Of a DNA stretch of 55,581 bases, positions 4,068 through 48,677 are shown piece by piece. Position numbers and translations under genes: made by a program. The notes under the pieces are model-generated. The model worked only from the letters and a program-made list of their open reading frames with translations. It was not told the DNA's origin and ran no database searches. The DNA is taken from NCBI GenBank assembly GCA_003662995.1, contig QMZC01000003.1:1-55581 (forward strand), read 5' to 3'. Source of the stretch: Archaeoglobales archaeon. GTDB lineage: Archaea > Halobacteriota > Archaeoglobi > Archaeoglobales > Archaeoglobaceae. Position 1 is the stretch's first letter. Each line of letters begins with the position of its first letter.

Positions 4068-4856
4068 ATGAGTGTTCATCAAAAAATCTGCTCAGCTAAA
4101 ACTATTTTAAAGCAATACGCCAACTACAACAAAAAATACGTGTTCTTTAGCGGAGGAAAAGACTCCATTGTCTGTCTTGATTTAGCAAATCAGATTTTAG
4201 AGGATTTCAAGATAATTTACATCCACATTACAGGTAACACTCATCCCAAGTGTGACAAATTCGTTGAGAAGGTAGCAGACGAATACAACAAGGAACTAAT
4301 TACCCTGAAATCCCAATATGATTTCTTTGATATTCTACAAAAATACGGTTATCCCGGAATTCTGTGGAAAGGTTCGAGGTGGTGTCTTAATCGGTTCAAG
4401 GATAGAGTGATAAAAGAATACGAGAAAACCAACCCGATATACGTTTCAATAGCAGGGATCAAGGCTTTTGACTCCCGGAGGCGAATGATCCTCAGCAAAC
4501 AAAAAGGTGTTAGAATATCTAAAAAGCATGGATGGGGCTTAATACAGCTCTATCCGATATGGAACTGGACACACAATGACGTCTATGCCTACCTCGAGGA
4601 AAACAGTTTACCCCTGAACGAACTTTACAGAAAGATAAATTCCGCTGGAAATTGCGTTTTCTGCCCGGCAATGCGTAAAAAGACCTTCATGCTCATTAAG
4701 TGCTACTGTCCTGAATTTTTTTGTAAGTGGATAAGGGCCCATAGAAATTTAAGGAAGGATTACCAAAATGGGTGTCTTAGAGGGTTGAGGACAGTCTTTC
4801 ATAAATTTGACCGGTTATATGATCTATATTGCAAAAATAAGACTCTGGAGGTTTAA
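4068..4856 (+). CDS. PAPS-reductase-like adenine-nucleotide alpha hydrolase
   Basis: This 262-residue protein starts 10 bases after a strong GGAGGTTT site. It carries the PP-loop SGGKDS (residues 28-33), which binds the ATP/adenylyl group in PAPS reductase, N-type ATP pyrophosphatases and DndC. A C-terminal NCVFCPAMRKK segment and extra cysteines (CYC, about 217-219) suggest a metal or Fe-S site. In this family the chemistry is sulfate reduction, adenylation or sulfur transfer to nucleic acid. DndC-like partners (DndD, DndE) are absent, so phosphorothioation is not supported. It lies in element B's operon, suggesting an accessory modification role rather than sulfate assimilation. Confidence 0.75.
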   Translation: MSVHQKICSAKTILKQYANYNKKYVFFSGGKDSIVCLDLANQILEDFKIIYIHITGNTHPKCDKFVEKVADEYNKELITLKSQYDFFDILQKYGYPGILWKGSRWCLNRFKDRVIKEYEKTNPIYVSIAGIKAFDSRRRMILSKQKGVRISKKHGWGLIQLYPIWNWTHNDVYAYLEENSLPLNELYRKINSAGNCVFCPAMRKKTFMLIKCYCPEFFCKWIRAHRNLRKDYQNGCLRGLRTVFHKFDRLYDLYCKNKTLEV

Positions 4857-8803: not shown

Positions 8804-9878
8804 AATCCATAACCAACTTATAGTACTTAGTTCTTCTTAATCTTTTTTCTATAAATTTAATTATATTATTTTTAATTAAAGCTTTATGAAACATTTTTTC
8901 CTCTTCTTTAAAGATGAATGCGTTGTGTATGGCTCTATTATAAAAAGTACTATGTTTAGAATTATCTAATGCATTTTTTCTCTCGCTTAGTGATTTGTTA
9001 ATACAAATTGGACATTCACATTTTTCGAGCAAATGATCTTCTTTAAGTTGTTTTCTACCATTTTTGGGAGAGATAAATCTATCACCGACACCAGGAAGTT
9101 GAATTGCCCCATAAGCTGCTTTCATCCTCCAGCTCATGGAGTCAACAGAATCTACACCTAAACTGAACATTAAATGCATTGTTGCAACACTACCAACTCC
9201 AAAAACATGCAAGAAGGCATCAGGAAATTCTTTTCTAATAATTGAAATTGCATCTATCATAAATTTAATTGTATTCATTCCATTTAGTTCTGAGATATTG
9301 GAAGTTTTCATATATCTGACTATAGGCACCAGGCTACCTACACCTACAACTTTAGGGTTGGTAATATCCTTTAATTCATCACAAGCTCTCTTTATCTCTT
9401 CCAATGTATACCCATGAACAACAGGCATCAAAACTATATCATGCGAATTATTAAGCATAAATCTTGTATTTTTTAATGTTTTCTTCCATCTTTTTATTCT
9501 GCTATCCAAATCTGATGGGTTAAAGGGGAAGTCCAGCACAACGCCAATATCTGGTTCTGCTTGTTTGTATATTTCGAGGACTTTTGCGGGAGTGATGTGT
9601 ATATTTTTCTTCATAAGTTGAAAGCCTCCAGAATCCATCATTACCAACCCATCAGTATTTAGGAACTCATGAATTAAGTTAATCATTATTTTCTTTTCAA
9701 CAATCTCATAAGCATTCACCATTATTGTATTCACATCAAAATACTCCCACGGGCGAGGTTTTTTCTTTATCATGCAGCCAAGCCATAAAACTGGTGTTTT
9801 TATTTTTTTACCGTTAAGATTTAGTACACCTAAGCGAGCATTTGTAGTTTTATCCTCCTTAATAACTCTAAATTTCAT
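8757..9878 (-). CDS. DpdA-like 7-deazaguanine transglycosylase (TGT fold)
   Basis: The 373-residue protein is a tRNA-guanine transglycosylase family enzyme. It keeps the base-binding DSGGFQ (D82), the nucleophile motif VDSMSW (D246), and the zinc site C287-x-C289-x2-C292-x25-H318, the exact family spacing. Archaeal tRNA-modifying ArcTGT is normally longer, with C-terminal PUA and associated domains; these are absent here, as in DpdA (formerly TgtA5), which inserts preQ0 into DNA. It starts after AAGGAGGTTCT and overlaps the DUF5591 gene by 11 bases, last in an operon with HerA, NurA and a giant ATPase. I infer base exchange of preQ0 into DNA; a tRNA substrate cannot be excluded by sequence. 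Confidence 0.82.
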   Translation of the reverse strand: MKFRVIKEDKTTNARLGVLNLNGKKIKTPVLWLGCMIKKKPRPWEYFDVNTIMVNAYEIVEKKIMINLIHEFLNTDGLVMMDSGGFQLMKKNIHITPAKVLEIYKQAEPDIGVVLDFPFNPSDLDSRIKRWKKTLKNTRFMLNNSHDIVLMPVVHGYTLEEIKRACDELKDITNPKVVGVGSLVPIVRYMKTSNISELNGMNTIKFMIDAISIIRKEFPDAFLHVFGVGSVATMHLMFSLGVDSVDSMSWRMKAAYGAIQLPGVGDRFISPKNGRKQLKEDHLLEKCECPICINKSLSERKNALDNSKHSTFYNRAIHNAFIFKEEEKMFHKALIKNNIIKFIEKRLRRTKYYKLVMDFITPEQPSQHRHRTF

Positions 9879-10395
9879 TTAGAACCTCCTTCAACGTTTT
9901 TAAAAGTACTGGTAGTTTGTACAGATTGTATGGTACAGTAACTGGGTAAAATAAGCCATCTATGCTATCAAGAATGATCTTCTTGTGGTGATTTGGGGTA
10001 AAAATTATGAAAACATTATGCATTTCGATTGCTTTTCTAAAAAATTGGCTTAACCTAAAAGTAAATACCTTTCTACCACTTTCAGTCATTTCGTTTGGTG
10101 GAAAATCATAGTGAGCCGCAGGGTATTTAGTTTCCCACTCCCTTGGTACGACTACTAGTGGTTCACCGATTATATACTCTTGAACTTTGGGAGTTAAATT
10201 ATGTTTGTTTAACATCCCAATAACTTTTTTATGCATAAATGAACGGGAATACGGCTTATGTTTTGTACAACCCAGTAGTAATGCTACTTCTTTTTCGCTT
10301 TCCCACTCTCTAATTACCGAGGAGTAGAAGGAAACTACATCTGGATGGAAAAAAAGGTCATCTCCACCACTCAGAGTTTCTACATTATCTACCAT
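9868..10395 (-). CDS. Stand-alone DUF5591 (archaeosine synthase ArcS core-like) protein
   Basis: The 175-residue protein matches the DUF5591 core of ArcS/TgtA2: a GCTKHKPYSRS motif (42-52) with nearby H55, followed by VVVPREWETKYPAAHYDFP (82-100). In ArcS this domain carries the C-x3-KPYS catalytic motif that converts preQ0 nucleoside toward archaeosine; the lysine of KPYS is present here (K47). ArcS itself is much larger and carries a PUA tRNA-binding domain, absent here. It sits between the giant ATPase and the DpdA-like gene. I infer that it modifies the base inserted by that enzyme, or acts in substrate handling. Function is inference; the family match is strong by eye. Confidence 0.75.
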   Translation of the reverse strand: MVDNVETLSGGDDLFFHPDVVSFYSSVIREWESEKEVALLLGCTKHKPYSRSFMHKKVIGMLNKHNLTPKVQEYIIGEPLVVVPREWETKYPAAHYDFPPNEMTESGRKVFTFRLSQFFRKAIEMHNVFIIFTPNHHKKIILDSIDGLFYPVTVPYNLYKLPVLLKTLKEVLNEI

Positions 10396-10405
10396 CTTCT
10401 CCCCC

Positions 10406-13400
10406 CTAAACAGCTAAAGACACACCCAGCTTCAGATATCCTTCCTTCACAAGTTTAGACAGTATTTTGTCAATTTTGTTAGAATCAATATCTAATTTAC
10501 TTTTAATAATACTGTATATTTGTTCAACCCAAATCATTCTAAATCTTCTGCTTAACTCGACTACAGTCTCCAATACAAGTACTTCTTCCTCGTTTAGGAT
10601 GTTTTTAATCAGCTCATAAAATTTATCTCTGATATTTATTTTTTCCTTTTCTATTTTACTTAATTTTATTGTTAGCGTAATAAGTTCTCCATCTATCTTA
10701 AACTTCAGCGAATCCATATAGCTCAATAGAGTTGTAAAAGCAGAAGATAACTCTTCATGCTTTTTCTTGACCACACTAATAGTTCTGGTTAAACGCTCTA
10801 GATATTCCAATGTACTTCGTTTATATTCATTCCAAGTGTCCTCTAAGTTGTTTCTGATTTGACTAAAGCCAGAACCTATATCTTTTAAGTGATCGATCAA
10901 ATCTAGCTCTTTGGTTACATAGTTTAAGAACTCCTTAGGATCTTCCTCCAAATGAGACGAAATCTCAGCTGGTAACGAATTTAGCTTATCCAGTAAAGTA
11001 TTGAAGTTCTTTTCTACTTCTTCAAGTTTTGGTTTATAATCTTCTAAATCAAAGATTTCATTTGCTTTACCTATGAAACTTTTAGTCTTTGATGCGTTTT
11101 TGAGTAGTAATTTTTCTTCCTTATATAAATTATCTATATATTCAATTAATTTTTGCATTGCACTTATGTTCTCTTCAATCGGCTCTAAATATTGATCAAC
11201 GATTTCCTCTAATTCGGCAATTGATTTATTAGCGATTTTAGTCTCTTTTAAACTTGGCATGAGATCTCCTAAACAAGTTCTAAGATATTCAAGCAAGATA
11301 GAGGAAAGAACGTACTCCTTGGTAAATTCCTTTGACTTGATTGTTAATGAAATTTTTTGAATATTTGTATTAATTCCATTGAATTTTTTGCTTATCTTTT
11401 CTAATCCACTCGATGCATTCTCTATAATTTCATCAATTTTTTTGGCTAAAGAATCAATAATAAATAATTTTACATTAAAATACGGATACTCATCTGTCTG
11501 TTTTCTGTAATCAAAAAGCTCGTCACCGTTAAAGTTATCATAATATTCCCTAAAAATGTTCTCAAGTTCTTCGTAACTGCCATAACTCTCGATCTCTTTA
11601 ACTTTATTGCTTAACTTTACGATCTCGTTATATTCCTTTATATCATTTAAATCAATAATTATCTTCAGCCATCTGTTAAAATCGTTACATACATTCTCTG
11701 CTTCGATTTTGAACTTCTCCAATTTTTCATTTAGGTCTTTAACTTTTTCCTCAGCTTCATTTTTTGCTTTTTTTATGGCATTTAGCCACTCTCTTGAAAA
11801 GTACTCTATTAATCTATATAGTAAAAAAATTTTTTGTAGACGAACATCAATGTCAATTATTCTATCAAGCTCTTCATATTGTTTAGATACAAAATCTAAG
11901 AAATCATTTAAAGTTATAACTTTTTCATCTCTTTGTTTTCTTACAAAGCAAAATCCATATTTTTCATCTTTATCGTCTAGTACTCTATGCAAGTTCTCAT
12001 ACGAAAAGTCTAATTTATATTTTAGCTCACTTTCGCCTGTTAGTTCAATTATATTCTTCTCTTTAATTATTCTGCCTTTATGTTCTAAAATATTTAAGAA
12101 AAGATGCTCCAAAATCCTCCTATTTGAACTTGTAATTATGAAATATTCTTCTAAGCTCTTAACATCGAGCTTGCCCTTTGCTGATCCTATGAGTTTTAAG
12201 ATCCTTTTCTCTACAGGATGTTCAATAACTCTATAAGTTCCGTTACTCTCTCTTTTTAAGAATCCATTATTTTCAAGATCTCTGGATAATTTTTCTAAGG
12301 TTTTAGCGCTCTCTATGTCAGGAATGAATCCAATTTTTGAACCATACTTGATAAATTTCTGCAATTCGGTTCTATTCCTATCAAATGCCTCTTGGACTGT
12401 TAAGTTTTCTCCAACAAAGTTTATATAGAACTTTAAGGTATCTGCAAGCTCCTTTGCACTCTTTGCAGAGTCAAGCTTTGGATCGGACACAACTAATCCA
12501 AGAGATTCTTGGTCTCTTAACCACTCTCTTAATTTTCTATCAAGTTCAATATCTTGCTGAACAACTTTCCTCGATTCAATATGGAATATTGCATCATCAA
12601 TTTTATCGGTATGTTCTAGATACATTTTGTGCATAATTATTATTCTCTTAGTTAATGTTGGATGCAGTTTAATTGGTATAATTATATTTTCTCCATTTTT
12701 ACCAAGTTCTTTCTCTTCGATTTTTTCTTCGCCTTTTTCAGTTATATCTCCAGTATATATAGCCAAAACGAGGTGTATTGGAGGCTTCCAGCCTTTGATA
12801 TATTTATGAATCTCGTCAATATCCTCTCCTTTAAGATCGCCATCTACAGCAAAAAACAGTGTGTTAATTTCTACATCATCTACATAAATTCTAACAAAAG
12901 TTAGACCTCTCTCTTCTCTTATCCTATCGATCTTGAAATTTTTGGACGCTTCAAGGATTGTCAATAAAGCATTCGGAACGTATTTCTCATACTGTTCTGC
13001 CAAACCTCTTGTGGTTTCTCTCCATAATTTCATTTTTAATTCTCGATCTTTAATAAATTCTAATTCTTTAGGAACCGGTGTGGGAAAAACTTGTAGAAGT
13101 AGTTCATCACTGGCTACGTAATATTTCTCATTGCTACACAGCTTTCTAAACTTATTTCTGATTTCTACTACTCTATCTTCGCTTATACCCTCAAAGAATG
13201 AAACGATACTCCTATCATCTATAGGTAAATAAATCTCTGAACGTAGTTCATTACTTAATAGGTCATAAAAAGTTATTCTATCTACAAAATCATCAAATAC
13301 CTCTATGTAATTATCAATTCTTATAATATCTCTATCTTTTTCTTTAACTATAAATTCTGATAACTTATTTTTTATGTCGTCCAAAGTTATTCCTTCTTTC

Positions 13401-14638
13401 GCCTTTGCAACACTTAAGATGGCCTTTTGGATACCCAATCGCTGTAAATTGTTATTGATTATACTAACGATGTTAGATGCATTTGTTACTTTTATTCTTT
13501 CTTCTATCTCATGTGATGCAAATGGTTTATATTCACCCACAAGCAAACTTAATGTATTTGCACATGCTTTCCCTAGTTCGGCTCTTTTTTGGTCTTTAAC
13601 TATATTTAAAATTCTATCATAATTTTCAACTTCAATACATGGAGTAGAGCCGCCATATACAAAAATTGTCTCATTTTTGAAAAAGTCCAAGAAAAGCTTG
13701 TAATCTACTACCTTCATTTTATCAGGATCATCAATCTCACTTGCCGCTCTATTCATCAACCTTGTAAATTTGCTTACCATATTACCTGGATTTCCGTGTG
13801 TTATTCTATATATTCCATTTAGAATTCCAATACTTTTTATTGGAAGGGGTTTTGGCAAATTATAATCAAAGCAGTATTTTAATAATTCCCATAGAAAGGG
13901 TATACCTTCATGTTTCCTAATTTCAGGTAACTCTATTACTCCTACCCTCCTCCCCAGCCCTCCGAAAATTAGCGATGTTTCCTCACTAACTTGAAGCTTG
14001 TAGAATGCGTCTGGTGTTGCAGCAATTATAAAATGTAAGTAACCTTCAAACTTTCCCCCCTCGTAGATTGGTCTAAACTGTCCATTAATTGTTTCTTTAA
14101 TACCGGAGATTATTTTCTTTAGAATAGGAAGATTCAAAAGCAGTTCTTCAAATTCATCAATAAAGACAACCAACTTCTCCCCATTTGTTGTCAATCTCAT
14201 TAGAGAATCCTCAACGAACTCATTTGGGTCATAAAAATTAGCTGGATCTGGTACGGCTGATATTTGGGATTCGGCCTTAATGCTTGCAAATAAGGCAACT
14301 AAGAACTGAAGAGAAGAAGACGGTGTTGCATTCATCAGCTTTTTTATATCTGGCAATTCAAAGGAATTAGAAAGGGTTGACGCTGAAACAAAAAATGCAC
14401 TATAACCAATTTCTTTAGTTATAGGTTCAATATATCTCTTAAACGCATCCGTTTTTCCTTCGCCCCATTCTCCAACAATAACCCTCATTGTGGGTTTTCT
14501 CTCAGATTTTACAATGTCTATAAATTCCTCAAGCTTCTTTTTAACATCCAGTCTGCTTTTAATTGTAATTCTTTCAAATCCCTCAAAAACAACACCCGCA
14601 TCGCTTGGTAGCTTATTAAAAATCTTTGTTGTTTCCAT
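10406..14638 (-). CDS. Large coiled-coil P-loop ATPase (1410 aa) of the DpdA/HerA/NurA operon
   Basis: ATG at 14638 follows AAGGTGAT and is preferred to an in-frame GTG at 14647. Walker A GEWGEGKT is at 56-63 and Walker B VVFIDEFEE at 157-165, so the first ~330 residues are an AAA/STAND-like ATPase. A long middle region follows, then roughly 450 residues of charged coiled coil, and a C-terminal winged helix (last ~70 residues). The architecture recalls large ATPases of BREX and Dpd-type defence systems, but I cannot assign it to either. It is separated by about 10 bases from HerA upstream and 10 from the DUF5591 gene downstream, so it is one operon. Likely a sensor, scaffold or loader. Confidence 0.75.
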   Translation of the reverse strand: METTKIFNKLPSDAGVVFEGFERITIKSRLDVKKKLEEFIDIVKSERKPTMRVIVGEWGEGKTDAFKRYIEPITKEIGYSAFFVSASTLSNSFELPDIKKLMNATPSSSLQFLVALFASIKAESQISAVPDPANFYDPNEFVEDSLMRLTTNGEKLVVFIDEFEELLLNLPILKKIISGIKETINGQFRPIYEGGKFEGYLHFIIAATPDAFYKLQVSEETSLIFGGLGRRVGVIELPEIRKHEGIPFLWELLKYCFDYNLPKPLPIKSIGILNGIYRITHGNPGNMVSKFTRLMNRAASEIDDPDKMKVVDYKLFLDFFKNETIFVYGGSTPCIEVENYDRILNIVKDQKRAELGKACANTLSLLVGEYKPFASHEIEERIKVTNASNIVSIINNNLQRLGIQKAILSVAKAKEGITLDDIKNKLSEFIVKEKDRDIIRIDNYIEVFDDFVDRITFYDLLSNELRSEIYLPIDDRSIVSFFEGISEDRVVEIRNKFRKLCSNEKYYVASDELLLQVFPTPVPKELEFIKDRELKMKLWRETTRGLAEQYEKYVPNALLTILEASKNFKIDRIREERGLTFVRIYVDDVEINTLFFAVDGDLKGEDIDEIHKYIKGWKPPIHLVLAIYTGDITEKGEEKIEEKELGKNGENIIIPIKLHPTLTKRIIIMHKMYLEHTDKIDDAIFHIESRKVVQQDIELDRKLREWLRDQESLGLVVSDPKLDSAKSAKELADTLKFYINFVGENLTVQEAFDRNRTELQKFIKYGSKIGFIPDIESAKTLEKLSRDLENNGFLKRESNGTYRVIEHPVEKRILKLIGSAKGKLDVKSLEEYFIITSSNRRILEHLFLNILEHKGRIIKEKNIIELTGESELKYKLDFSYENLHRVLDDKDEKYGFCFVRKQRDEKVITLNDFLDFVSKQYEELDRIIDIDVRLQKIFLLYRLIEYFSREWLNAIKKAKNEAEEKVKDLNEKLEKFKIEAENVCNDFNRWLKIIIDLNDIKEYNEIVKLSNKVKEIESYGSYEELENIFREYYDNFNGDELFDYRKQTDEYPYFNVKLFIIDSLAKKIDEIIENASSGLEKISKKFNGINTNIQKISLTIKSKEFTKEYVLSSILLEYLRTCLGDLMPSLKETKIANKSIAELEEIVDQYLEPIEENISAMQKLIEYIDNLYKEEKLLLKNASKTKSFIGKANEIFDLEDYKPKLEEVEKNFNTLLDKLNSLPAEISSHLEEDPKEFLNYVTKELDLIDHLKDIGSGFSQIRNNLEDTWNEYKRSTLEYLERLTRTISVVKKKHEELSSAFTTLLSYMDSLKFKIDGELITLTIKLSKIEKEKINIRDKFYELIKNILNEEEVLVLETVVELSRRFRMIWVEQIYSIIKSKLDIDSNKIDKILSKLVKEGYLKLGVSLAV

Positions 14639-14648
14639 AAGTATCACC

Positions 14649-16331
14649 TTATAAGTTATCTACAACATTAGTTTCACCAATTGTTGGTTTAACTTTTCTC
14701 TCTTCTTTAGGAACCTTTACTACTAAGGGGAACGGTACCGTAACCATTTGCCCAGTTACGATTACCTCGCCCGTGTCCAAAGTTGTAAGCCTTGCAACAA
14801 GTGATTGAGGCAAACCACCGGTTACACTCTTCACAAAACTAACATCCTCTGGAGAAACTCTATGAATTAAGAAAGTATTACACATCGAAAGGACTATTCT
14901 ATCAACAAAAGATGGTCTTTGAGAAATCAGACATAGCGATAAACCGAATTTTCTGCCCTGCGTAGCTATTGCAGAGAGCTTTGAATGAGCTAAACTTGAA
15001 GCAATTGGGTAAGATCTATCTGGACAGAAATTCTGAGCCTCCTCAATAATAAATAATAGGTACTTCTGAATTCCGTTCAGCTTGTATTCTGTGAATTTGT
15101 TAAATAAAATTGTAGCGAGATAAGTCATTACAAGCTGTTTCGTCTTTAAATCTACACCTGGTGCACCTTCAGCTGAAAAATCAATTATTGCTATACCTCT
15201 GTTATTTGTAATGTCATCTACAAATTTGTCACTTTTTAATGGCGAATCTGTAGATAGCAGTTTATATTTATCTTCTAAATTATAAAATTCATTTAATTGA
15301 TTATTTATAGCTCTAATAGTAGATGCAAAAAATCCTTCATTTTGTAACCTGTCTACATACTCTGACAAGGTATCCTTATCTCTATAGAAAAGATCGTGCA
15401 AAGACGAATATCCTGCTTCACGAATCAATTCGAAAGCTCTAATCAACCCACTGATTTGTTGTTCCGCCCCTTCAGTAGTTCCCTTAAAATATGTTACTAT
15501 AATTTCCGCCAACTCTGTGTAATTAAGCAAGTCAAGATTGATACCTATCGGTTTTACAAGTTCACTTCTCCTAAATTCTGGTTTCATGTAAATGTTGGGA
15601 AAAACGTATCTTTGGATCCAACCAGACTTTATCCAATCCAAATTTTCCAGTCCATTTTCGTCTACATAATTCACGTAGTCTAAGTAATCACCATGTGCAT
15701 CAATAATTATCATTGGATATGATACATGCTCAGAATCGTTCTTTGGTATATTCACAAGTTTTTCAATTAGATATCCTGTGTTAAATGATTTTCCACTTCC
15801 TGTTACTCCAAAAACAGCTAAATGCATCGGTATCTTCTCAACATCGAGAGGTATGGGTAAGCTACCGTATCCACTCAATGAACCAAATTTGATAATCCCC
15901 CTATAAACACCATCTGATATTCTTTTATCCTTTGGAACACCGAATAAGTCTTCTTCATAGTTTTCATACACTTCTGGATCAACCTTAACAACAATGTCAC
16001 CCGGTCTTGGTGGATACTCGATTTCTTTCTTGGGAACTTCTATAAGCAACTCTAATTTGCAAATTTCATACTGTCGAGCAACAGCCTCTGGGATTGGCCT
16101 TCCCTCTCTTCTTGCCTCACTCCAAGGATCGCCTTCAGTATAAAACGCATTGTAGGGCAAAATCTGAGAAACTCTACAAAGTATTTTTCTCTCTCCCGAG
16201 TTAATTATCAAAAGCATGCCTTCTCTTATCTTTCCTCTTTCTGCTTCTTTTAAGAGTTGGCACGTTGCCTCTCTTGTCGTCGCGCCGCTTAAGATTATTC
16301 CAACGGCATCTTTTGTAATCACCACACTCAC
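14649..16331 (-). CDS. herA: HerA-like bipolar DNA helicase/translocase
   Basis: This 560-residue FtsK/HerA-superfamily ATPase has an N-terminal beta (HAS-barrel-like) domain, Walker A GVTGSGKS (175-182), Walker B LFIIEEAQ with following catalytic residues, and the ATQGRKFGLSL...SQRP segment typical of HerA. HerA hexamers thread duplex DNA into the NurA nuclease. Its start overlaps the NurA stop by four bases, a classic herA-nurA coupling, but mre11 and rad50, their usual chromosomal partners, are absent. This is therefore an element-borne copy, probably for restriction or element processing rather than general repair. Confidence 0.88.
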   Translation of the reverse strand: MSVVITKDAVGIILSGATTREATCQLLKEAERGKIREGMLLIINSGERKILCRVSQILPYNAFYTEGDPWSEARREGRPIPEAVARQYEICKLELLIEVPKKEIEYPPRPGDIVVKVDPEVYENYEEDLFGVPKDKRISDGVYRGIIKFGSLSGYGSLPIPLDVEKIPMHLAVFGVTGSGKSFNTGYLIEKLVNIPKNDSEHVSYPMIIIDAHGDYLDYVNYVDENGLENLDWIKSGWIQRYVFPNIYMKPEFRRSELVKPIGINLDLLNYTELAEIIVTYFKGTTEGAEQQISGLIRAFELIREAGYSSLHDLFYRDKDTLSEYVDRLQNEGFFASTIRAINNQLNEFYNLEDKYKLLSTDSPLKSDKFVDDITNNRGIAIIDFSAEGAPGVDLKTKQLVMTYLATILFNKFTEYKLNGIQKYLLFIIEEAQNFCPDRSYPIASSLAHSKLSAIATQGRKFGLSLCLISQRPSFVDRIVLSMCNTFLIHRVSPEDVSFVKSVTGGLPQSLVARLTTLDTGEVIVTGQMVTVPFPLVVKVPKEERKVKPTIGETNVVDNL

Positions 16332-17431
16332 CTCATTCTACTTGCTACGAGTTGATCAAAAGGATCTACACTCCTACTTTTTGTTAGTATTTCCTCATAT
16401 AGGACTTCTGCAGCACCCTTTCTAATGTTACACTTTTCATGTGCAAGTAAAACTGGCAATGGATCTTGTCCAGGATATGTCCAATAGTCAAGTATATTGA
16501 TAACCTTACTTATCGTGGAATTAACCAAATCTACATTTTCAGATGGTGGAAAAGTAAAGGGAACGTCGATTCTTAATACCTTTGATCTTATATCTCTCTC
16601 ATAGAAAAATGACACCACATACACGTCATTTTCTTTGTATTCCTTGTAAGGCTTAGTATTTAGTTCGCTCAAATCAATCCAGTTTGTATATAGTGAACCT
16701 AACGAAATATTTTGTCTTAGTTTTGTAAAAAGCAATAACATCAAATGTTGGTCAGTTGGAAAACACTCTGCCTCTTTAACATTAAATTTGTTGATTATAT
16801 GATTAACAAAAAATCTATCACGGACTCTCTTAACACATCCAATCACGATTGAATTTTTTAAACACACTCTAAAAGCTTCACATCTGTAATTTATATAATC
16901 TTCATCATTACGAAATGAGAAAGGAGGGTCTATAATGGGACCATCTATAAAAACAACTGATTTGATATCTTTACTACCCCAATTTAAAATAGCTTTTGAT
17001 TCAGCGGTCAACATTTTTTCTTCAGCAGCCAATCTAATGCTCGGAGTATCTTGTTCATCAATTTCATCTATATCTGCCCAGAAAACCTCGACTTCTGGTT
17101 CAGATTCAAGTCCGTTTTTGAATAATATTCTAGTAACACTCAAAAATAGATACCATTTACCACCAATTCCGCCAACGAGCTGAAAGCTTCCATCTATACC
17201 AACTGCATACTTTTCCACTTCAGTCTCATTTATTTTATTATTTATGAAAAAGAAATCCTTACTCCATAAAACATCAACAATTTTTCCAGTCAAACCCCTT
17301 AAATTTCTTAACTCTCTTTGAGCTTTCTCACCTTTTATTTGTGCCGATTCAACGAGTTTGGCAAGTATTTCAGGCTCAGTTTTGTTGAATTCTATTCTTT
17401 TAAGCAATTCTTTTAACTCTTCATATTTCAT
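16328..17431 (-). CDS. nurA: NurA-family nuclease
   Basis: The 367-residue protein has the NurA motifs: the first metal aspartate in VGIDGSFQ (about 73-80), FIDGPI (about 182-187), the GCVKRVRD segment, and the C-terminal LLAHEKCNIRK block. NurA is a 5'-3' exo/endonuclease that acts with HerA. It is first in the minus-strand operon ending with the DpdA-like gene. No clear Shine-Dalgarno precedes ATG 17431, consistent with a leaderless transcript starting in the 165-base divergent region shared with vapB. It could be the effector that degrades DNA lacking the modification; that is inference. Confidence 0.82.
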   Translation of the reverse strand: MKYEELKELLKRIEFNKTEPEILAKLVESAQIKGEKAQRELRNLRGLTGKIVDVLWSKDFFFINNKINETEVEKYAVGIDGSFQLVGGIGGKWYLFLSVTRILFKNGLESEPEVEVFWADIDEIDEQDTPSIRLAAEEKMLTAESKAILNWGSKDIKSVVFIDGPIIDPPFSFRNDEDYINYRCEAFRVCLKNSIVIGCVKRVRDRFFVNHIINKFNVKEAECFPTDQHLMLLLFTKLRQNISLGSLYTNWIDLSELNTKPYKEYKENDVYVVSFFYERDIRSKVLRIDVPFTFPPSENVDLVNSTISKVINILDYWTYPGQDPLPVLLAHEKCNIRKGAAEVLYEEILTKSRSVDPFDQLVASRMR

Positions 17432-18975: not shown

Positions 18976-20130
18976 ATGGATAGGATTACACGCGGTCAAC
19001 TCAAGGAATTTGTACTTTCGTTTGTTAGACACATGAGAGAGTCTATATCTCAATACCCAAATGTTGAGCATACGTTCCCCGCATATATGTGGAGCCCTTA
19101 TCGAATAACATGTGTAATTTCAAAGAAGAACGGCGTCGCAATTGAATTTATAGAGAGAAGCAAAGATTGGGAGATATCCGTTCGCAAAACAGATAGGCGT
19201 ATAGAAGAATACCTTATCAAACTTCCCTGCAATAATGATAAAGCTTTCTTTGAGATAAATGGCGAATTCAATAGAATTGAGAACGTTAATCTCGTTACAA
19301 GAGATTTCTATGATGCGTTTAAGGATATAATTGACTACCTATGCAAGTCAACAACGTTTGTTATGGAGAAACCTTGTCTTTTTGTGAGGCTAAAAGCTGG
19401 CAGCGTAAAATTAGTTAATGTGGGTATCGCATACGTAAAAAATGGACGAAGAATCGTGAAAAAGATAAAATTCCTATGGCTCATAAGTACAAGTGCAAAA
19501 GAATACTTTACTAAGGAAATGGCAATACAACATGCAGAATTGGAGGTAAGGAGGTATCTAGATAGCCTAATACCAAGAATTCCAATAACCGCACTTGTAA
19601 GTGCACTTCAAGAATTTGAGAAACTGATATACAAAGAAGACACTGATGAGTCAGATATGCAAAAATTCTTAGAGGCTCATCCATTCTTTCTTTTGATGGG
19701 TTATGAAAGTGTCGAACCCAAGCCAAAGCTTTCGGAGGATCTAAAACCGGATTTTATCATAAAAACTCCAGCCGGAGAATATATCATAGTTGAGTTAGAA
19801 TCCCCGAAGAAAAAATTGTTCACGAGTGGAAAATTCATGCCCGAACACAAACATCTAAAAGATGCTAAAGCTCAGATAGAGGGATATTTAAACTATATTA
19901 AAAACAATATTGAGCATTTAAGATGGAAGTATCCAGATATGAAGGCAGAAAAAGTTCACGGTCTTCTTGTAATAGGCCTTAGCAACAACCTTACTCCAGA
20001 AGAAAGAGATCGTTTGAAGCAACTTAATGCAGAATTAAAAAATTATGAGATAAGAACGTATGACGAACTGGCCAGAAGACTTAAACAATTTTTAGAGAAT
20101 TTAGGTGTTAAATATGGCTCATTCGGATAG
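18976..20130 (+). CDS. Shedu-like (DUF4263) nuclease-domain protein
   Basis: The 384-residue protein has an unrecognised N-terminal half (1-205) and a C-terminal domain resembling the Shedu SduA/DUF4263 nuclease: FLEAHPFFLLMGYESVEPKP, then LKPDFII (aspartate about 258) and YIIVELESPKKKLF (about 266-280), a PD-(D/E)XK-like core with ELESPK in place of the common ExK. A helical region with a conserved HKHLKDAKAQIEGY follows. Shedu proteins are single-gene anti-phage nucleases. It is divergent from the zinc-ribbon operon and overlaps a small gene downstream. Its place in a defence-rich element supports the call. Confidence 0.65.
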   Translation: MDRITRGQLKEFVLSFVRHMRESISQYPNVEHTFPAYMWSPYRITCVISKKNGVAIEFIERSKDWEISVRKTDRRIEEYLIKLPCNNDKAFFEINGEFNRIENVNLVTRDFYDAFKDIIDYLCKSTTFVMEKPCLFVRLKAGSVKLVNVGIAYVKNGRRIVKKIKFLWLISTSAKEYFTKEMAIQHAELEVRRYLDSLIPRIPITALVSALQEFEKLIYKEDTDESDMQKFLEAHPFFLLMGYESVEPKPKLSEDLKPDFIIKTPAGEYIIVELESPKKKLFTSGKFMPEHKHLKDAKAQIEGYLNYIKNNIEHLRWKYPDMKAEKVHGLLVIGLSNNLTPEERDRLKQLNAELKNYEIRTYDELARRLKQFLENLGVKYGSFG

Positions 20131-22356: not shown

Positions 22357-23427
22357 ATGAGAGAACTTACTGTTAAAATTAAACCCTTAACTCCTATATG
22401 GACAGGGGATGAAGATAGGGAATGTAGAACATTAAGGGAGACTAGCATAATCGGAAGCTTGAGATGGTGGTATGAAGTTTTGGTTAGAGGATTAGGTGGG
22501 AGTGCATGTGACTCAACTTCTGATAACAGATGTCCAGATAAAGACGGGAATCATTGTGATGCTTGCGAATTATTTGGATGCACGGGTTGGGCAAGGAAGT
22601 TTCGACTAGAGATAGAATCTAATAAGTTAGCAGTTATTCCCGAAATCAAAATAGGAACGCGGGAAAAGAGAGTTATCAAAGGAAAAAAGAAATACTTAAA
22701 ACGAAATGTAGCAGGATTTATGGCTGATGGATCAATAATTCTGAAATTTATACCACTAAGAAAAATATCTTCAAACGAGTGGGCTTTATTAAATAAAGCA
22801 TTGGATATAATAGCGAATTATGGTGGATTAGGAGCAAAAATATCACAGGGCAACGGTGTAATTGAAATTGTTGAAAATAATTTACCATATAGGGATAGAA
22901 AACCCGAAAGTGCTATATTAAAAAAGGAAGGTAATACTATTAAATCACCAAATCTAAATGACTTCTTCTTTTACAAGTTTCATATTAAATTCAAAGATGG
23001 AATATCTAACTTAATTGACAGGAAAGTTTTCTGGACTCATGCTTCGGATCATAATGGCTTTAATGATAATTGGGAAAACTGGAGAAAACTATGGAATGAT
23101 TACTGTTTTCTTCCAATAGCATTTCATATAAGGGACGCCATAAGACAGGTGGAGGATGATAAAAATAAACGGCACGAGATATTTGGCGAGTTGGGAAAGG
23201 GTTCAAAGATTTTTGTTTCTCATGGATATAAAACTGGCGATAAAACAGTAGAAACAAGGATTTGGGGATATGATGTGAAAGAGAGTATTAAAAATAAAAT
23301 AAAGAAGGAATTGGAAAATAAATTAAAAGAAAAATTGTTTTCAAAAGAAGAATATAAAGAAAGCTTAGAAAGTTGCATTTTAACAGAAGAAAAAACGGGT
23401 AGAGAGATCTTGGGGGTAGTAAGATGA
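22357..23427 (+). CDS. cmr1: Cmr1-family Cas7-like RAMP (type III-C)
   Basis: This 356-residue RAMP begins with the Cmr1 signature: LTPIWTGDED then TLRETSIIGSLRWWYEVLVRGLGG (about 25-50), followed by a cysteine-rich insert (CPDKDGNHCDACELFGC, about 67-83) that probably binds zinc, and a glycine-rich loop (NYGGLGAKISQGNG). Cmr1 caps the 3' end of the crRNA-bound effector. It is first of six overlapping cas genes, and overlaps the next by four bases. The C-terminal 100 residues are helical and charged. Confidence 0.88.
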   Translation: MRELTVKIKPLTPIWTGDEDRECRTLRETSIIGSLRWWYEVLVRGLGGSACDSTSDNRCPDKDGNHCDACELFGCTGWARKFRLEIESNKLAVIPEIKIGTREKRVIKGKKKYLKRNVAGFMADGSIILKFIPLRKISSNEWALLNKALDIIANYGGLGAKISQGNGVIEIVENNLPYRDRKPESAILKKEGNTIKSPNLNDFFFYKFHIKFKDGISNLIDRKVFWTHASDHNGFNDNWENWRKLWNDYCFLPIAFHIRDAIRQVEDDKNKRHEIFGELGKGSKIFVSHGYKTGDKTVETRIWGYDVKESIKNKIKKELENKLKEKLFSKEEYKESLESCILTEEKTGREILGVVR

Positions 23428-24347
23428 TGCACGATTATTATCTAAAACTTTTATTAGAATCAGTGGATGAAGACAAGATTAGATCGTTCGAGGAGTGGGA
23501 AAGAGAAAACAAGAGAAGACTAAAAGGAAAAAGTGTAGAAGAGAAACGCATTATTTGGCAACAAGAAGAAATTGTAGGGGGGAAGAAGAAAGATTTGATT
23601 CTTTCAAAAGAAAAGTATGTTAATGACTTTTATCCTAAACCAACGGATTTACAAAACCTCCCTAGAAAATCTGTACTCATAAAAATCTCTTTCACTCTCA
23701 AAAAACCTTACACAAGCAAGGATGAAGGAGAATTTCATATTATTGATGGTAGATTTGAAAACCCAATTGTTAGAGATAAATTCACTGGACTTCCGATGGT
23801 AAGACCATCAACATGGAAAGGACATTTGAGATTTTCTGCTGAAAAGGTTGAATACGATGAAGAAAAGAAGAAAAGGATTATCAAAAGGCTCTTCGGCTCA
23901 GAATCTGGGGAAGATGTGGCACTGAAGGGAAGGCTTTACTTCTTCCCAACTTTCTTTAAAAGCGATGCAGAAAAAGATGTAATAACTCCCTTGAGGAGAG
24001 ATACAAGAACTCCCATAAAAGGTAGAAGCCCAATACCTATTGAAGTTGTGAAACCTGGAAGTAAAGGAGAGTTTTACCTTCTCTATATTCCATATCCAAA
24101 GGGAAAGGATTTCAAAAAGGAGGAAATTAAAGAGGATTTAATGTTTCTTGCTAAAGCTTTGAAATTGATGTTTTATATCTATGGATTCTCGGCAAAGAAA
24201 ACATCTGGCTTTGGAATAATTGAAGAAAAACTAAATGAAGGAAAGTTCTGGATAAAATCTAATACGAAAATTAAAGAAGAAACATTCTCCCGATTGGATG
24301 AACTGGAGAATAAATTAATAAGTTATTCGGAGGGTAAAGATGAGTAA
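23424..24347 (+). CDS. Cas7-group RAMP (Cmr6-like), type III-C
   Basis: The 307-residue protein has a charged helical N-terminus (1-65) and a RAMP domain with FTGLPMVRPSTWKGHLRFSAE (about 112-132), FGSESGEDVALKGRLYFFP and a C-terminal glycine-rich loop KKTSGFG (about 257-263). These fit a Cas7-group subunit, most like Cmr6. ATG at 23424 overlaps the Cmr1 stop by four bases and its own stop overlaps cas10. It should bind crRNA as part of the effector. Exact subunit numbering is uncertain. Confidence 0.7.
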   Translation: MMHDYYLKLLLESVDEDKIRSFEEWERENKRRLKGKSVEEKRIIWQQEEIVGGKKKDLILSKEKYVNDFYPKPTDLQNLPRKSVLIKISFTLKKPYTSKDEGEFHIIDGRFENPIVRDKFTGLPMVRPSTWKGHLRFSAEKVEYDEEKKKRIIKRLFGSESGEDVALKGRLYFFPTFFKSDAEKDVITPLRRDTRTPIKGRSPIPIEVVKPGSKGEFYLLYIPYPKGKDFKKEEIKEDLMFLAKALKLMFYIYGFSAKKTSGFGIIEEKLNEGKFWIKSNTKIKEETFSRLDELENKLISYSEGKDE

Positions 24348-27300
24348 CTGCCTAAACAAAATTAAAAATAAAAGAGAAATGATATTAACAGGAGAAATAG
24401 GAGCGTTGCTTCACGATATTGGAAAGTTGCATCCTGATTTTGTTAAAAGCAAGTCTATTGAAAAAACAGCCACTGATTACCATGCACAAATTGACAAATT
24501 TTTAGACCCGGACTTACTAAGTTTAATTAAAAACAAAAAATTCGAGATAACAATATATTCAAACACTACAAATATTTACAAACTTATTGCAGAACATCAC
24601 AATTATAACATAAATGATGGACTTGTAAAACTTTTGCAAGGATGTGACCGAAAGGATTCGGCAGACGATAAAGGAATAGTGAGAAAAAAGCAGTCTATAA
24701 AAAGCACAATTATCTCCTCTCCTTTTGGATATCCAAAAGAAAAAATAGATTTATATTGCCTCCAGAAAAGATTTAAGGATTTGGAAGCCAATCTAATCGG
24801 GTTATTTAGAAATTATATATCAGGAACAATAAGTCTTACTTGTTTTAGAGAATCTCTAATAAACGCACTTAAAGCATATTTTCCACATACTCTTGGAGAA
24901 ACGAGAATACCCGCAAACGATGTCACCCTGTGGGATCACTCCTATTCAACAGCATCGCTGTTTAAAACCGTTTTAGCAGAGATGATATGTGGAGTAGATC
25001 CGGATCTCCAGAATTTAAAATGGAGAATTTTTGGTATTTGTTGGGATGGATTAGGATTCATAAATAAAGGGAGAAAGATTGCAGAAATTAAGGCAAGAAA
25101 TGAGATTATTGAAAATATCAAAAAGGAATTAAAAAGGAAATTCGAGGATGAAATTCCTATAGGAAATGCGGTTTATGAAGATACAAATGGTATTTATTTC
25201 ACATTTCCTGATTTGGCTGATGAATCAAAAGACCTTGCTAAAGAATGTGCAAAAGAGGCGCTGAAAATAATATACAAGATGAGTGATAGTGAACTGTGGC
25301 CGTTTTTCACCTTAAGCAAAACCTCAGGGACACTTACTATCATCGCTGATGAATTAAAATTTGCATCTGAAAAGAAAAAAATACCAAAGATGAGTCCAAC
25401 TCTGTTTATTGAAGGTAGTGAAGAATGGGTTTTTGAAAATCCTGAGATTGCCACACCTTCTGAAGGACAAGATGTCTGTCCTATTTGCAGGATAAGACCA
25501 AAGGATGTGAAAAAGGAAAGGTGTGATATCTGTGAAGAAAGAAGAAGAGGAAGACTATTGCGATGGCTTTCAAACAGGCAAGATACAATATGGATTGACG
25601 AGGTTGCAGATATAAACAACAGAATCGCTCTGATTTCCCTGAATTTTTATCTTGACAAATGGCTTGATGGAACGATGATTGGAACTACTTATTCGCAGAG
25701 CTTTGAGGACTGGTTGGATAAAGAAAAAGAGAATTTGTCCAAAATACAAGATGTATTAAAAGAAAAAATAAAAAAACAGATTGATAGTTTAGAAAAGGCT
25801 ATTGAGAATATGAAAAAAGCAAAAGATCCCAGCAAGGTTAAAGCCAGAATAAACGAGAAGATCAAAGAAAAGAAAGAATTAGAGCAAAAAATAAAGCAAC
25901 TTACATTTATTTTAATCCCTGAGAAGAGAACGATCTATAAGGTTTTAGACATATTTTTCAAAGTAAAAGATAATGATAGAGAAATTGCTGCAAAAATATT
26001 AGATACATTTTTCGAGGAAAACATTGGATTGGATAAAAACACTCTTGAAAAACATTTAACTAACATCAAAGAGAGGATAGGAACTAGTAGCTTAACTAAA
26101 GAAAATCTAGCAACCTATCTTTTCACACAAAACCCATCTCCTGCCCGATTATACAGAATATGGCAAGAAACAGAAGAATTCTTTGATCTAGTAATTGGAA
26201 AGATAAAGGATAAGATTTATAGCATCAAATGGAAAAGAATAAAGTTTTCTGTGAATTATATCGACTTAAAATCCAAACTAAAGCAGGGAAAGAGAATAGA
26301 AAAGGGTACTCCTTACATAATCCAAATAGATAATTTAGAGCCCCAAAAACTCCTCGTTTTTCACAATGAGAACGGAGAATTCTATACAATAGAATCTCTT
26401 GGAAAATTCAAATTTAACAACAAAATGGGGGAAGAAGCCGTTAAAGAGGCATTAAAACATGGATTCAAACATTTTGCTCTGGAGGATGATCCAGATAAAA
26501 ATTTATTACAGTTAAGTTATGATGAGAAAATAAAACCTGATGAGAATAGTATAGAAACAGAAGAATACTACCCCCTAATAGAAATCAACAAATCCCCGCT
26601 ATCACTTCGCTTAATGGTTCCGGCTTTGGATTCCATGAAAGTTATAGAATTGGTTACAAAACTCTACAATGAGAGATTTGAGAAGGTGTTGGGAAAACTA
26701 CCATTGAACGCTAAACTACTCGTGGCAAAAAGGAAATTTCCGCTCTATATTCTCCTCGATGCAGAAAACAGAATGCTTGAAGGGGAGGGATTTAAAAAAC
26801 AGATGCCAATAACCCCATGGTGGAACGTGAACGGAATGAGAAATGACAAATACTATGGTTTTTATCCGACAAAACCAATAGAAGAAGACGGAAAATACTC
26901 TCTTGACGATTTATCTTCTATCTCTAAAGGGAAAGTCTTCCACCTTTATCTAGGATATTTTGACTTTGATCTGCTTTTAGGAACGACTGATAGATACAGC
27001 ATATATTATAAAGGTGGAAAGAGAGGGTGCGAGGACTACAAACTATTTACAGGAAGACCTTACTATTTCTACCAAATTTCTGAAATACTGGAGTTGTGGG
27101 ATGTATTGTCAAATCTCCCAAGCTCACAGATAAATTTCATTGAAGAAATGCTTACTTCAAAATTAAGGGAATGGAGAAGTGTCGAAGATGAAAATAGACA
27201 GAATATATTTAGAGAATTCGCAGAGGCTACCTTAAAAGATGCTTTTGGCGGTAAATGGAATGGACTAAGAGACGAAACCAAGTCTTTCCTTGTATGTTCT

Positions 27301-27381
27301 GCCATTAATGGACTTTTACTTGACACCATAATTCTTTTCAGACATATAATAAAAGTTAAGGGGGTTGATGAATATGAATGA
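24340..27381 (+). CDS. csx11: Csx11/Cas10-like large subunit, HD intact, palm motif absent (type III-C)
   Basis: The 1013-residue protein has an N-terminal HD nuclease motif LLHDIGKLH (about 23-31) with further H residues, a central zinc ribbon CPICRIRPKDVKKERCDIC (about 380-398), a long coiled coil (about 460-530) and a C-terminal region with a YFDFDLLLG segment. I find no GGDD palm motif anywhere, so cyclic oligoadenylate synthesis is not expected. That combination is the hallmark of type III-C (Csx11, MTH326-like) effectors. The HD domain should cleave ssDNA at transcribed targets. It overlaps both neighbours. Confidence 0.82.
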   Translation: MSNCLNKIKNKREMILTGEIGALLHDIGKLHPDFVKSKSIEKTATDYHAQIDKFLDPDLLSLIKNKKFEITIYSNTTNIYKLIAEHHNYNINDGLVKLLQGCDRKDSADDKGIVRKKQSIKSTIISSPFGYPKEKIDLYCLQKRFKDLEANLIGLFRNYISGTISLTCFRESLINALKAYFPHTLGETRIPANDVTLWDHSYSTASLFKTVLAEMICGVDPDLQNLKWRIFGICWDGLGFINKGRKIAEIKARNEIIENIKKELKRKFEDEIPIGNAVYEDTNGIYFTFPDLADESKDLAKECAKEALKIIYKMSDSELWPFFTLSKTSGTLTIIADELKFASEKKKIPKMSPTLFIEGSEEWVFENPEIATPSEGQDVCPICRIRPKDVKKERCDICEERRRGRLLRWLSNRQDTIWIDEVADINNRIALISLNFYLDKWLDGTMIGTTYSQSFEDWLDKEKENLSKIQDVLKEKIKKQIDSLEKAIENMKKAKDPSKVKARINEKIKEKKELEQKIKQLTFILIPEKRTIYKVLDIFFKVKDNDREIAAKILDTFFEENIGLDKNTLEKHLTNIKERIGTSSLTKENLATYLFTQNPSPARLYRIWQETEEFFDLVIGKIKDKIYSIKWKRIKFSVNYIDLKSKLKQGKRIEKGTPYIIQIDNLEPQKLLVFHNENGEFYTIESLGKFKFNNKMGEEAVKEALKHGFKHFALEDDPDKNLLQLSYDEKIKPDENSIETEEYYPLIEINKSPLSLRLMVPALDSMKVIELVTKLYNERFEKVLGKLPLNAKLLVAKRKFPLYILLDAENRMLEGEGFKKQMPITPWWNVNGMRNDKYYGFYPTKPIEEDGKYSLDDLSSISKGKVFHLYLGYFDFDLLLGTTDRYSIYYKGGKRGCEDYKLFTGRPYYFYQISEILELWDVLSNLPSSQINFIEEMLTSKLREWRSVEDENRQNIFREFAEATLKDAFGGKWNGLRDETKSFLVCSAINGLLLDTIILFRHIIKVKGVDEYE

Positions 27382-28288
27382 AGATGCGGGAATAAAAAGG
27401 GTTTATGCAAGAGCTCTCGACCCAATACATATAGGGGCCGGAGGGTATAGACTTGGAAGAGTGGATAATACGATTGTGAGAGACCCAGCGACAGATGTGC
27501 CGAAAGTACCGGGAACTTCAATTGCAGGTGTTGTAAGGGCGTTTTATACGGTATATCTGATGGAAAATGATAATGAATGTAAAAGTAAGAGTAACGAAGA
27601 AGAAAAAAAGAAATGTGCGGAAGAGAAGGCTAAGTTGGTTTTTGGCGACGAAACAAAAAAAGGCATTTTGCGATTCTACGATGGACAGATAGTTTTCTTT
27701 CCAGTTTCGTCGATTCAGGGGACTGTGTGGATTACAACGAAAGAACTGATTGAGTACTGGTTTGGGGAAATAAAAGATAAAAATGGAGAAAAAATAAAAA
27801 TTCCAGATGAAATTGGTAATGAAGCTTATGCAATTAAAGGGATAAACACTGATAAACCCCTAAATCTTGGCTGGTTATTGCTTAAAGTTGAGAAAGCTGA
27901 AAACGGAAAAGAGGTTGTTCTGCCCTCAGAAATAGATAAATGGGTGAAAAGAATCGTCCTCGTGTCAGAGAAGCTCTTTTCTCACATAGTAAACGACAAT
28001 CTTGAAGTAAGAACCTCTGTAAAAATAGATCCAGAGACAGGAACAGCCGAAGCAGGAAAGTTATTCACCTATGAAGCAATACCACGGGGAACAGTGTTCG
28101 GATTTGAAATCGGTGTAGATAAGCACAGAGATGGGAGCGTAGATGTTAATAAAATAATAAATGCAGTTTCACCATACTTTAAATTTCTTGGTATAGGTGG
28201 GATGGGAACAAGAGGTTTTGGTAGAATTGAGCTGGCTATAGAACAAAAAGTAAAATCTCAAGGAGGTGAAACTAATGCTCAATCTTGA
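27374..28288 (+). CDS. cmr4: Cmr4-family Cas7 backbone subunit (type III-C)
   Basis: ATG at 27374 is used; earlier in-frame codons at 27365/27368 would increase overlap with cas10. The 304-residue RAMP starts RVYARALDPIHIGAGGYRLG, with VPGTSIAGVVRAFY (about 42-55) and a C-terminal glycine-rich loop GIGGMGTRGFG (about 275-285), characteristic of Cmr4. Cmr4 forms the backbone and its aspartate-containing thumb loops cut target RNA at 6-nt intervals; D32/D38 in RVDNTIVRDP are candidates. It overlaps cmr5 by 14 bases. Confidence 0.87.
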   Translation: MNEDAGIKRVYARALDPIHIGAGGYRLGRVDNTIVRDPATDVPKVPGTSIAGVVRAFYTVYLMENDNECKSKSNEEEKKKCAEEKAKLVFGDETKKGILRFYDGQIVFFPVSSIQGTVWITTKELIEYWFGEIKDKNGEKIKIPDEIGNEAYAIKGINTDKPLNLGWLLLKVEKAENGKEVVLPSEIDKWVKRIVLVSEKLFSHIVNDNLEVRTSVKIDPETGTAEAGKLFTYEAIPRGTVFGFEIGVDKHRDGSVDVNKIINAVSPYFKFLGIGGMGTRGFGRIELAIEQKVKSQGGETNAQS

Positions 28289-28640
28289 TTACGAATGCAT
28301 GAAATACGCTCAGGAGATAAGTAAAATCAGTGATTCCAATCTTGAAAATAATCTAAGAAAGGCTCTTGGAGTTTTACAGGAAGATGGCGTTTATGCAATG
28401 TTTCTCTGGCTTGAAAGTAAGGAGGGGAAGAACATAAGAAAAATTCTTATTAGATTGTTAAATGAATCAGAGATAAGAAAACATCTTCTGACTAATTCGA
28501 GTAATTTTCCTGAGGATTTCAGTAAGTTTTGTGAGAAGTTAAGGGAAATTGCCCGGGATATAGATAAATTACTGTTTGTGAAGAAGCTCCTTGAACGCAC
28601 ATTAATCTATGCACTATATCACACAAAAATAGGTGAATAA
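28275..28640 (+). CDS. cmr5: Cmr5-like small subunit (Cas11), type III-C
   Basis: ATG at 28275 follows AGGAGGTGA. The 121-residue all-helical protein has the small-subunit pattern DYECMKYAQEISK and ALGVLQEDGVYAMFLWLES, matching Cmr5. Small subunits line the effector filament and contact target RNA. It lies between cmr4 and the Cas5-like gene and ends one base before the latter's ATG. Confidence 0.8.
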   Translation: MLNLDYECMKYAQEISKISDSNLENNLRKALGVLQEDGVYAMFLWLESKEGKNIRKILIRLLNESEIRKHLLTNSSNFPEDFSKFCEKLREIARDIDKLLFVKKLLERTLIYALYHTKIGE

Positions 28641-28641
28641 G

Positions 28642-29559
28642 ATGTGGAAAAAAGTTGATATTGTATTTAAGTTAAAAAGCCCCCTCCACATTGGATATAT
28701 GCCCTTTAAGGGCTCTGTAGTTTCACCTACACGGTATTATGTTCCCGGAAGAAACCTGTGGGGTGCTATAACAAAGAGGGTAACAGAGTATTTATGCGAA
28801 AAACCTAAGACAGACGATTACAAGAAAATAGGCAAGCAAGTTATGGAGAATTTTAGATTCTCATATTTCTATCTTTATGATGGAAGAACGATCTATTTTC
28901 CTCGTTATACAGATGAAGGACTTAAATACGGAAATAATAAGGAAGAAATAACTAAATCAGAATTTGAGCGTAGATTCATAGGAAGTCTTATTTCAACAGC
29001 GATAGACAGCAATGGAACTGCGAAAGATGAAAGTTTGCATGAAATTGAATTCATAAATAACAGATTTAAGGATGAAAACGGGGACTTGAAGGATGTGAAA
29101 ATCGCAGGATGCATTTGGGTCAAGGAAAATGCAAAAATAGAGGATAAAAAGGTTATTATAAACGATAAGGGAATCTTTATTGGAAATTTTAACGCAATTC
29201 GAGAACTCATTCTTGGTGGGGAATCAAAGTACGGCTTTGGGCATGTTTTGCTTGATTCGATTAACAGAGTAGAATCTTCAAATCTTGCTCCTTTTAAGTG
29301 GAAAAATCCTGAAAAAATAGAAATAAAGTCAAATGAACCCATAGTCACCCATTTGAAATATAGTAAAAATATAAACTTTAAAGGAGATATAGAACTTTTA
29401 GCCGGAAGAGGATATTTTGACCCCCAAGATCCTGTAAAGGCATCTGATAAGCCAGGTAAGGTGATATTAAAGCCAGAATACTATCTTTCACCCGGAACTG
29501 TGTTAAATGTGAATATTACTGGAAGATTAAATTGGGATGGTACTATAAATAAAATATGA
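28642..29559 (+). CDS. Cas5-group RAMP (Cmr3/Csx10-like), type III-C
   Basis: ATG at 28642 follows AGGTGAATAAG; an in-frame GTG at 28633 would overlap cmr5. The 305-residue RAMP has SPLHIGYMPFKGSVVSPTRYYVPGRNLWGAITKR near the N-terminus and the glycine-rich ILGGESKYGFGHVLL (about 190-204). Position and motifs fit the Cas5-group subunit that binds the crRNA 5' tag (Cmr3-like), though Csx10-type assignment is also possible. It is the last gene; no cas1, cas2, cas6, CARF effector or array follows. Confidence 0.72.
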   Translation: MWKKVDIVFKLKSPLHIGYMPFKGSVVSPTRYYVPGRNLWGAITKRVTEYLCEKPKTDDYKKIGKQVMENFRFSYFYLYDGRTIYFPRYTDEGLKYGNNKEEITKSEFERRFIGSLISTAIDSNGTAKDESLHEIEFINNRFKDENGDLKDVKIAGCIWVKENAKIEDKKVIINDKGIFIGNFNAIRELILGGESKYGFGHVLLDSINRVESSNLAPFKWKNPEKIEIKSNEPIVTHLKYSKNINFKGDIELLAGRGYFDPQDPVKASDKPGKVILKPEYYLSPGTVLNVNITGRLNWDGTINKI

Positions 29560-48629: not shown

Positions 48630-48677
48630 TAGGGTTGAGGAAGTGATAGCATGATTTCAACTTCTATAGGTAAAAAA

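Follow-up and report, generated by a model that had tools for sequence, protein, structure and literature searches.

A five-gene archaeal operon with a free-standing archaeosine synthase core, a transglycosylase, HerA, NurA and a large ATPase: a candidate 7-deazaguanine DNA defence system

Relation to described deazaguanine and HerA systems

Deazaguanine marking of DNA with linked restriction is established for the bacterial Dpd islands, and archaeal hints are sparse. The Dpd system (DpdA-K; dPreQ0 and dADG in DNA) combines an enzyme of the TGT family with another that works on the nitrile, and has restriction genes linked to them. Corresponding elements occur in one operon of the DNA stretch analysed here (the window, 55,581 nucleotides of an Archaeoglobales genome), in which tailoring would fall to DUF5591 instead of DpdC, and restriction to HerA, NurA and a 1400-aa ATPase. 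PADLOC and NCBIfam scans of the operon proteins recognised no DpdB, DpdC or DpdD-K. The best reading is a Dpd-like logic that employs a different tailoring enzyme and a different restriction module; our literature search did not find this five-gene operon described.

The closest viral precedent pairs the same two kinds of enzyme. Vibrio phage nt-1 encodes a free DUF5591 protein of 226 aa, flanked by QueD-like and FolE genes and two genes away from the DNA transglycosylase DpdA2, and the phage DNA contains dPreQ0, dADG and some dG+ (PMC6884629); ArcS homologues in phages had already been listed by Hutinet et al. 2019 (PMC6884629). A DUF5591 protein teamed with a DNA transglycosylase therefore has a precedent, and the claim in the original prediction that known phage dG+ routes avoid DUF5591 is not supported. 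The nt-1 protein is distant from that of the window: a fold search of viral proteins with the window DUF5591 model placed it second, and tblastn with the window protein did not find it. Unlike the window operon, the nt-1 cluster is viral, includes preQ0 synthesis genes, has a DpdA2-type TGT and lacks a restriction module. The Sulfolobus viruses STSV1, STSV2 and STSV4 carry the same two families as overlapping genes, with about 40% DUF5591 identity to the window protein, but in the opposite order and with a shorter TGT devoid of the Zn motif; the regions read hold no restriction genes. The tRNA enzyme ArcS has the DUF5591 core and its motif in common with the window protein, which differs from it in having neither the TGT-like domain nor PUA and in belonging to a separate clade.

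The BREX-related capture (BRC) systems likewise unite a HerA translocase, an AAA ATPase and a TGT in one defence locus, and are defined by PglZ, DUF6079, STAND, DUF4007 and GNAT components (PMC12839542). The operon genes gave no Pfam matches to PglZ, DUF6079 or DUF4007, and no STAND or GNAT component was seen in them either; conversely, the BREX survey describes HerA loci with TGT and mentions neither NurA nor DUF5591 (PMC12839542). On a plasmid of Aulosira laxa (L124, 2808-10026), a DpdA-like TGT comes after HerA-, Mre11- and Rad50-like genes, an arrangement that may be a bacterial counterpart using another nuclease. In two haloarchaeal plasmids (L125, L126) a TGT is accompanied by a DUF6884/DpdC-like protein and by a BrxC/D ATPase, and L125 also has preQ0 synthesis genes; these loci look like an archaeal Dpd-like system. 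Together, the cyanobacterial and haloarchaeal loci indicate that TGTs recur beside DNA-processing machines.

The operon, its proteins and its setting

Five genes form a single minus-strand operon in the order NurA, HerA, AAA ATPase, DUF5591 and TGT, with intergenic spacings of −4, +1, +10 and −11 bp (overlaps negative). The original prediction dealt with the last two; the complete operon, which it missed, is the more informative finding. The first gene (16328-17431) encodes a NurA-family nuclease of 367 aa (PF09376, E 1.3e-6) and overlaps by 4 bp the gene for a HerA-type hexameric DNA translocase of 560 aa (14649-16331; PF01935, E 1.8e-26; PADLOC HerA, E 6e-40), so that the NurA domain and the HerA central domain lie in adjacent genes, as in a HerA-NurA module. 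The third gene (10406-14647) encodes a large AAA-type ATPase of 1413 aa with Walker A (GEWGEGKT) and Walker B (DEFEE) motifs and a long C-terminal part.

The DUF5591 gene runs on the minus strand from an ATG at 10395 to 9868 and encodes a free-standing archaeosine synthase core of 175 aa. Its assignment, proposed in the original prediction, was borne out by Pfam (PF17884, 65.7 bits against a gathering cut-off of 26, E 5.4e-18), by the core region of the NCBIfam ArcS model NF040592 (E 8e-20) and by phrog_34505 (E 4.6e-29), matches that make a chance assignment untenable. The NF040592 match is to the core only and reaches 71 bits against the 440 of this full-length equivalog, which spans TGT-like, core and PUA domains; as predicted, the window protein has neither a PUA nor a fused TGT domain. 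The ArcS core motif C-x3-KPY-x2-S-x2-H is present from C43 to H55 (C43-TKH-K47-PY-SR-S52-FM-H55; 10231-10269, minus strand), the Pro that precedes the Cys being Gly in the window protein. C43 and K47, the two residues singled out beforehand, are invariant across 17 relatives, as are P48, S52, E78, P79, P84, Y96, P100 and H137, and C43-x3-K47-P48-Y49-x2-S52-x2-H55 aligns with the core of the host's own ArcS, to which the window protein is 34% identical over 85 aa.

The predicted fold of the DUF5591 protein (pLDDT 80) retrieved a single PDB entry at E ≤ 0.001, the DUF5591 protein AF0587 (2Q07; E 5e-6, probability 1.00), with which the motif also aligns; SMUG1 DNA glycosylases came next, with marginal E-values. 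In a maximum-likelihood tree, the window protein and the TGT-paired DUF5591s of viruses and Asgard archaea share one side of a branch with 100/98 support, set apart from fused ArcS and a euryarchaeal form of 200-250 aa on the other side; one misaligned row was ignored, and L072, with a branch of 4.7, is an artefact. The 200-250 aa form is a free DUF5591 family found in many euryarchaea (L029, L031, L039, L045); it groups with ArcS and had no adjoining TGT in the four loci examined, and we rejected it as a relative.

The start of the TGT gene (9878-8757, minus strand) is overlapped by the last 11 bases of the DUF5591 gene, in line with the overlap noted originally. Its 373-aa product belongs to the TGT superfamily by its domain (PF01702, 86.7 bits, E 2.1e-24) and by both catalytic aspartates, Asp82 (DSGGFQ) and Asp246 (DSVDS); the CxCxxC Zn site is kept and a PUA domain is lacking. 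DpdA models match it (PADLOC, E 9e-10; NCBIfam, E 3e-9), and the archaeosine TGT model does so at E 2e-32, in each case under the cut-off, with 36.4 bits against the 200 required by the DpdA equivalog NF041059; its scores place it between these two families. As for the proposed DNA-type TGT partner, the enzyme is distinct from the host's tRNA enzyme, and the pair recurs in three Sulfolobus viruses, which points to DNA. Judging from its family, we infer that it works like DpdA, though it is not filed as DpdA. The TGT tree agrees with the DUF5591 tree, its deepest split being weak (61/86). A structure model of the TGT (pLDDT 53) was too poor and was set aside.

G+C is 0.32-0.35 over 9-18 kb, the AT-richer region in which the operon lies, and 0.40 ahead of it. 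This lower G+C, together with sporadic and often broken copies elsewhere, is compatible with a mobile defence locus, as are the neighbouring Shedu, type III CRISPR and PIN genes. The Shedu (SduA, DUF4263) nuclease gene (18976-20130) belongs to a defence island adjoining the operon; the type III CRISPR effector locus (22357-29559), with Cmr1, Cmr6, Cas10 (Cas10c type, 1013 aa), Cmr4, Cmr5 and Cmr3, and the PIN gene are also nearby. On the strand opposite to the operon, a BrxP-like PAPS-reductase gene (4068-4856; PADLOC, E 9e-22) stands next to two tyrosine integrases that carry zinc ribbons; it was dropped as a system member given its strand, and because none was seen next to the Asgard copies. 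A Topo VI-A/Spo11 Toprim-like gene occurs twice, near both window ends (1544-2698 and 48651-49835; 77% DNA identity), suggesting two related integrated elements. At 46198-46845, an open reading frame matches OLD/AriA-type ATPase models in their N-terminal portion and is followed by short same-strand reading frames; this gene looks split or broken.

Distribution in archaea and viruses

The operon recurs in a second phylum. Asgard genome G561 has NurA, HerA, an ATPase of 1402 aa and TGT in the same order as the window; in G562, NurA-HerA-ATPase extends to a contig end and a TGT opens another contig. In both, the DUF5591 gene is located elsewhere in the genome. HerA-ATPase (G563) or NurA-HerA-ATPase (G564) and a TGT-DUF5591 pair are found on separate contigs in two further genomes, and Asgard pairs occur in either gene order. 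ATPase homologues were detected in 4 of 224 Asgard genomes and in 2 of 394 genomes of the window's own phylum. All four Asgard carriers are among the 14 genomes with the tree-confirmed DUF5591 type, a co-occurrence with a hypergeometric probability of 1e-5 that is not corrected for kinship among genomes; the four may be close relatives and hence not independent. Several other Asgard chromosomes hold the pair in conserved synteny, lacking restriction genes and with Glu in place of the TGT catalytic Asp246, which suggests another or a lost function there.

Within the window's phylum, the window's DUF5591 type was found in 1 of 394 genomes, its own (E 2.6e-79; next best 1e-19), and the HerA subfamily in four: the window's genome; G313, whose copy is truncated; G201, where a NurA-HerA pair sits at the end of a contig; and G271, where remnants lie close to transposase-like genes. 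The G313 copy, from another family, is 96.7% identical to the window in DNA, and dN/dS values of about 0.07 for HerA and 0.10 for the ATPase in this comparison indicate purifying selection on both. Across the two phyla, identity is 45-49% for HerA, 29-33% for NurA and 21-23% for the ATPase. NurA residues D80, D163, D168 and D227 are among those invariant with three Asgard homologues, and the Walker residues of the ATPase are likewise invariant. The large ATPase is probably a sensor or licensing subunit, a recognition role that its fast evolution would fit.

A scan of viral contigs with the single DUF5591 protein gave no match and the alignment search (A1) recovered STSV1 and STSV2 only; a TGT scan returned 17 loci, with DUF5591 at the two STSV loci and not at the other 15. 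Rod-shaped virus and other viral TGTs of the window type are unaccompanied by DUF5591. Plasmids yielded no relatives of the window DUF5591 protein, and phages, plasmids and viral contigs none of the ATPase. The suggestion that the pair is a viral-type self-protection unit on a mobile element, functionally unlinked to an ordinary HerA-NurA repair operon beside it, draws on the STSV viruses, which carry the pair alone, and on the integrases nearby, but is improbable given that a second phylum repeats the arrangement of HerA-NurA-ATPase with TGT, gene order included, that this HerA belongs to a subfamily of its own, detected in 4 of the phylum's 394 genomes, and that no viral copy of HerA or the ATPase was found.

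Proposed marking, restriction and alternative readings

We lean towards the operon being an archaeal 7-deazaguanine DNA restriction-modification-like defence system. By analogy with its family, the PUA-less TGT would replace chosen guanines in host DNA with preQ0, as DpdA does, and DUF5591 would then add an amine to the nitrile of the preQ0 already in DNA. That amine would be lysine if the protein behaves like ArcS, giving dPreQ0-Lys and also stopping reversal by the TGT. In the host, RaSEA could in principle turn the adduct into dG+. Going by their families, the large ATPase would sense unmarked DNA and license its translocation by HerA into NurA, which would degrade it.

In the window's genome, the host's ArcTGT gene (480 aa) and ArcS gene (548 aa) stand in tandem, and RaSEA is encoded as well (E 1.9e-125), so the operon pair is additional; a second, bacterial-type Tgt (399 aa; L101, 7812-9011 of contig C1) is also present, beside archaeal-looking genes. 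Full QueC was found neither there nor in the Asgard genomes G561-G565, so preQ0 must come from salvage or from enzymes that escaped recognition. RaSEA was not detected above cut-off in G561-G565, so that in Asgard genomes with the complete system the mark may remain the lysine adduct. ArcS of T. kodakarensis acts on the preQ0 nucleoside and nucleotide but not on the free base, and the TGT is prevented from exchanging preQ0-Lys back (PMC11298593), properties that make an ArcS core beside a transglycosylase sensible for either nucleic acid.

Lysine as the donor is an even call, and the most serious alternative keeps the DNA system and changes this step: DUF5591 may hydrolyse preQ0 to dADG as a DpdC equivalent, or use ammonia to give dG+. 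We rate this as possible, if somewhat doubtful. The dADG of phage nt-1 fits it, and the authors of that study suggest that phage ArcS may act like DpdC (PMC6884629); the lack of a RaSEA match in G561-G565 points the same way. A fold search with the window DUF5591 model also returned YaaA proteins and DUF6884, the DpdC-like family of the haloarchaeal plasmid loci. Against this, the ArcS motif, K47 and C43 included, is intact, and profile comparison with DUF6884 was weak (probability 9%), leaving homology with that family unsupported despite the shared fold neighbourhood.

The substrate of the pair is likely to be DNA. Its presence in three Sulfolobus viruses, where alone it would give self-protection, points to DNA as the target and speaks against the unlikely reading that the pair modifies an additional archaeosine-type position in tRNA or rRNA and lies next to unrelated HerA, NurA and ATPase genes. 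That reading would accord with the origin of TGT and ArcS as tRNA enzymes, with the housekeeping-like synteny of the Asgard pairs that lack restriction genes and with the acceptance by ArcS of minimal RNAs and nucleotides containing preQ0 (PMC11298593). It sits poorly with the lack of a PUA domain, with the full ArcS already present in the window's genome and in the Heimdall-type Asgard carriers, and with gene order in two phyla, the TGT directly following the ATPase in G561 and the pair following it in the window; among the sampled Asgard genomes, moreover, the ATPase occurs only where the window-type DUF5591 does.

Returning to the restriction-modification-like system, we offer its most specific form tentatively: self DNA would be marked with 2'-deoxy-preQ0-lysine by the TGT and a free ArcS core, ATPase-licensed HerA-NurA would destroy unmarked DNA in members of two phyla, and the pair would have been captured by Sulfolobus viruses. 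Such a compact archaeal version in five genes would tie archaeosine biosynthesis to immune defence, using the core of a tRNA enzyme for tailoring and a recombinational-repair nuclease as the effector, and could yield a new DNA base. It would also give a role to the PUA-less TGTs of Sulfolobus viruses and make testable the old report in which STSV1 DNA was said to be unusually modified.
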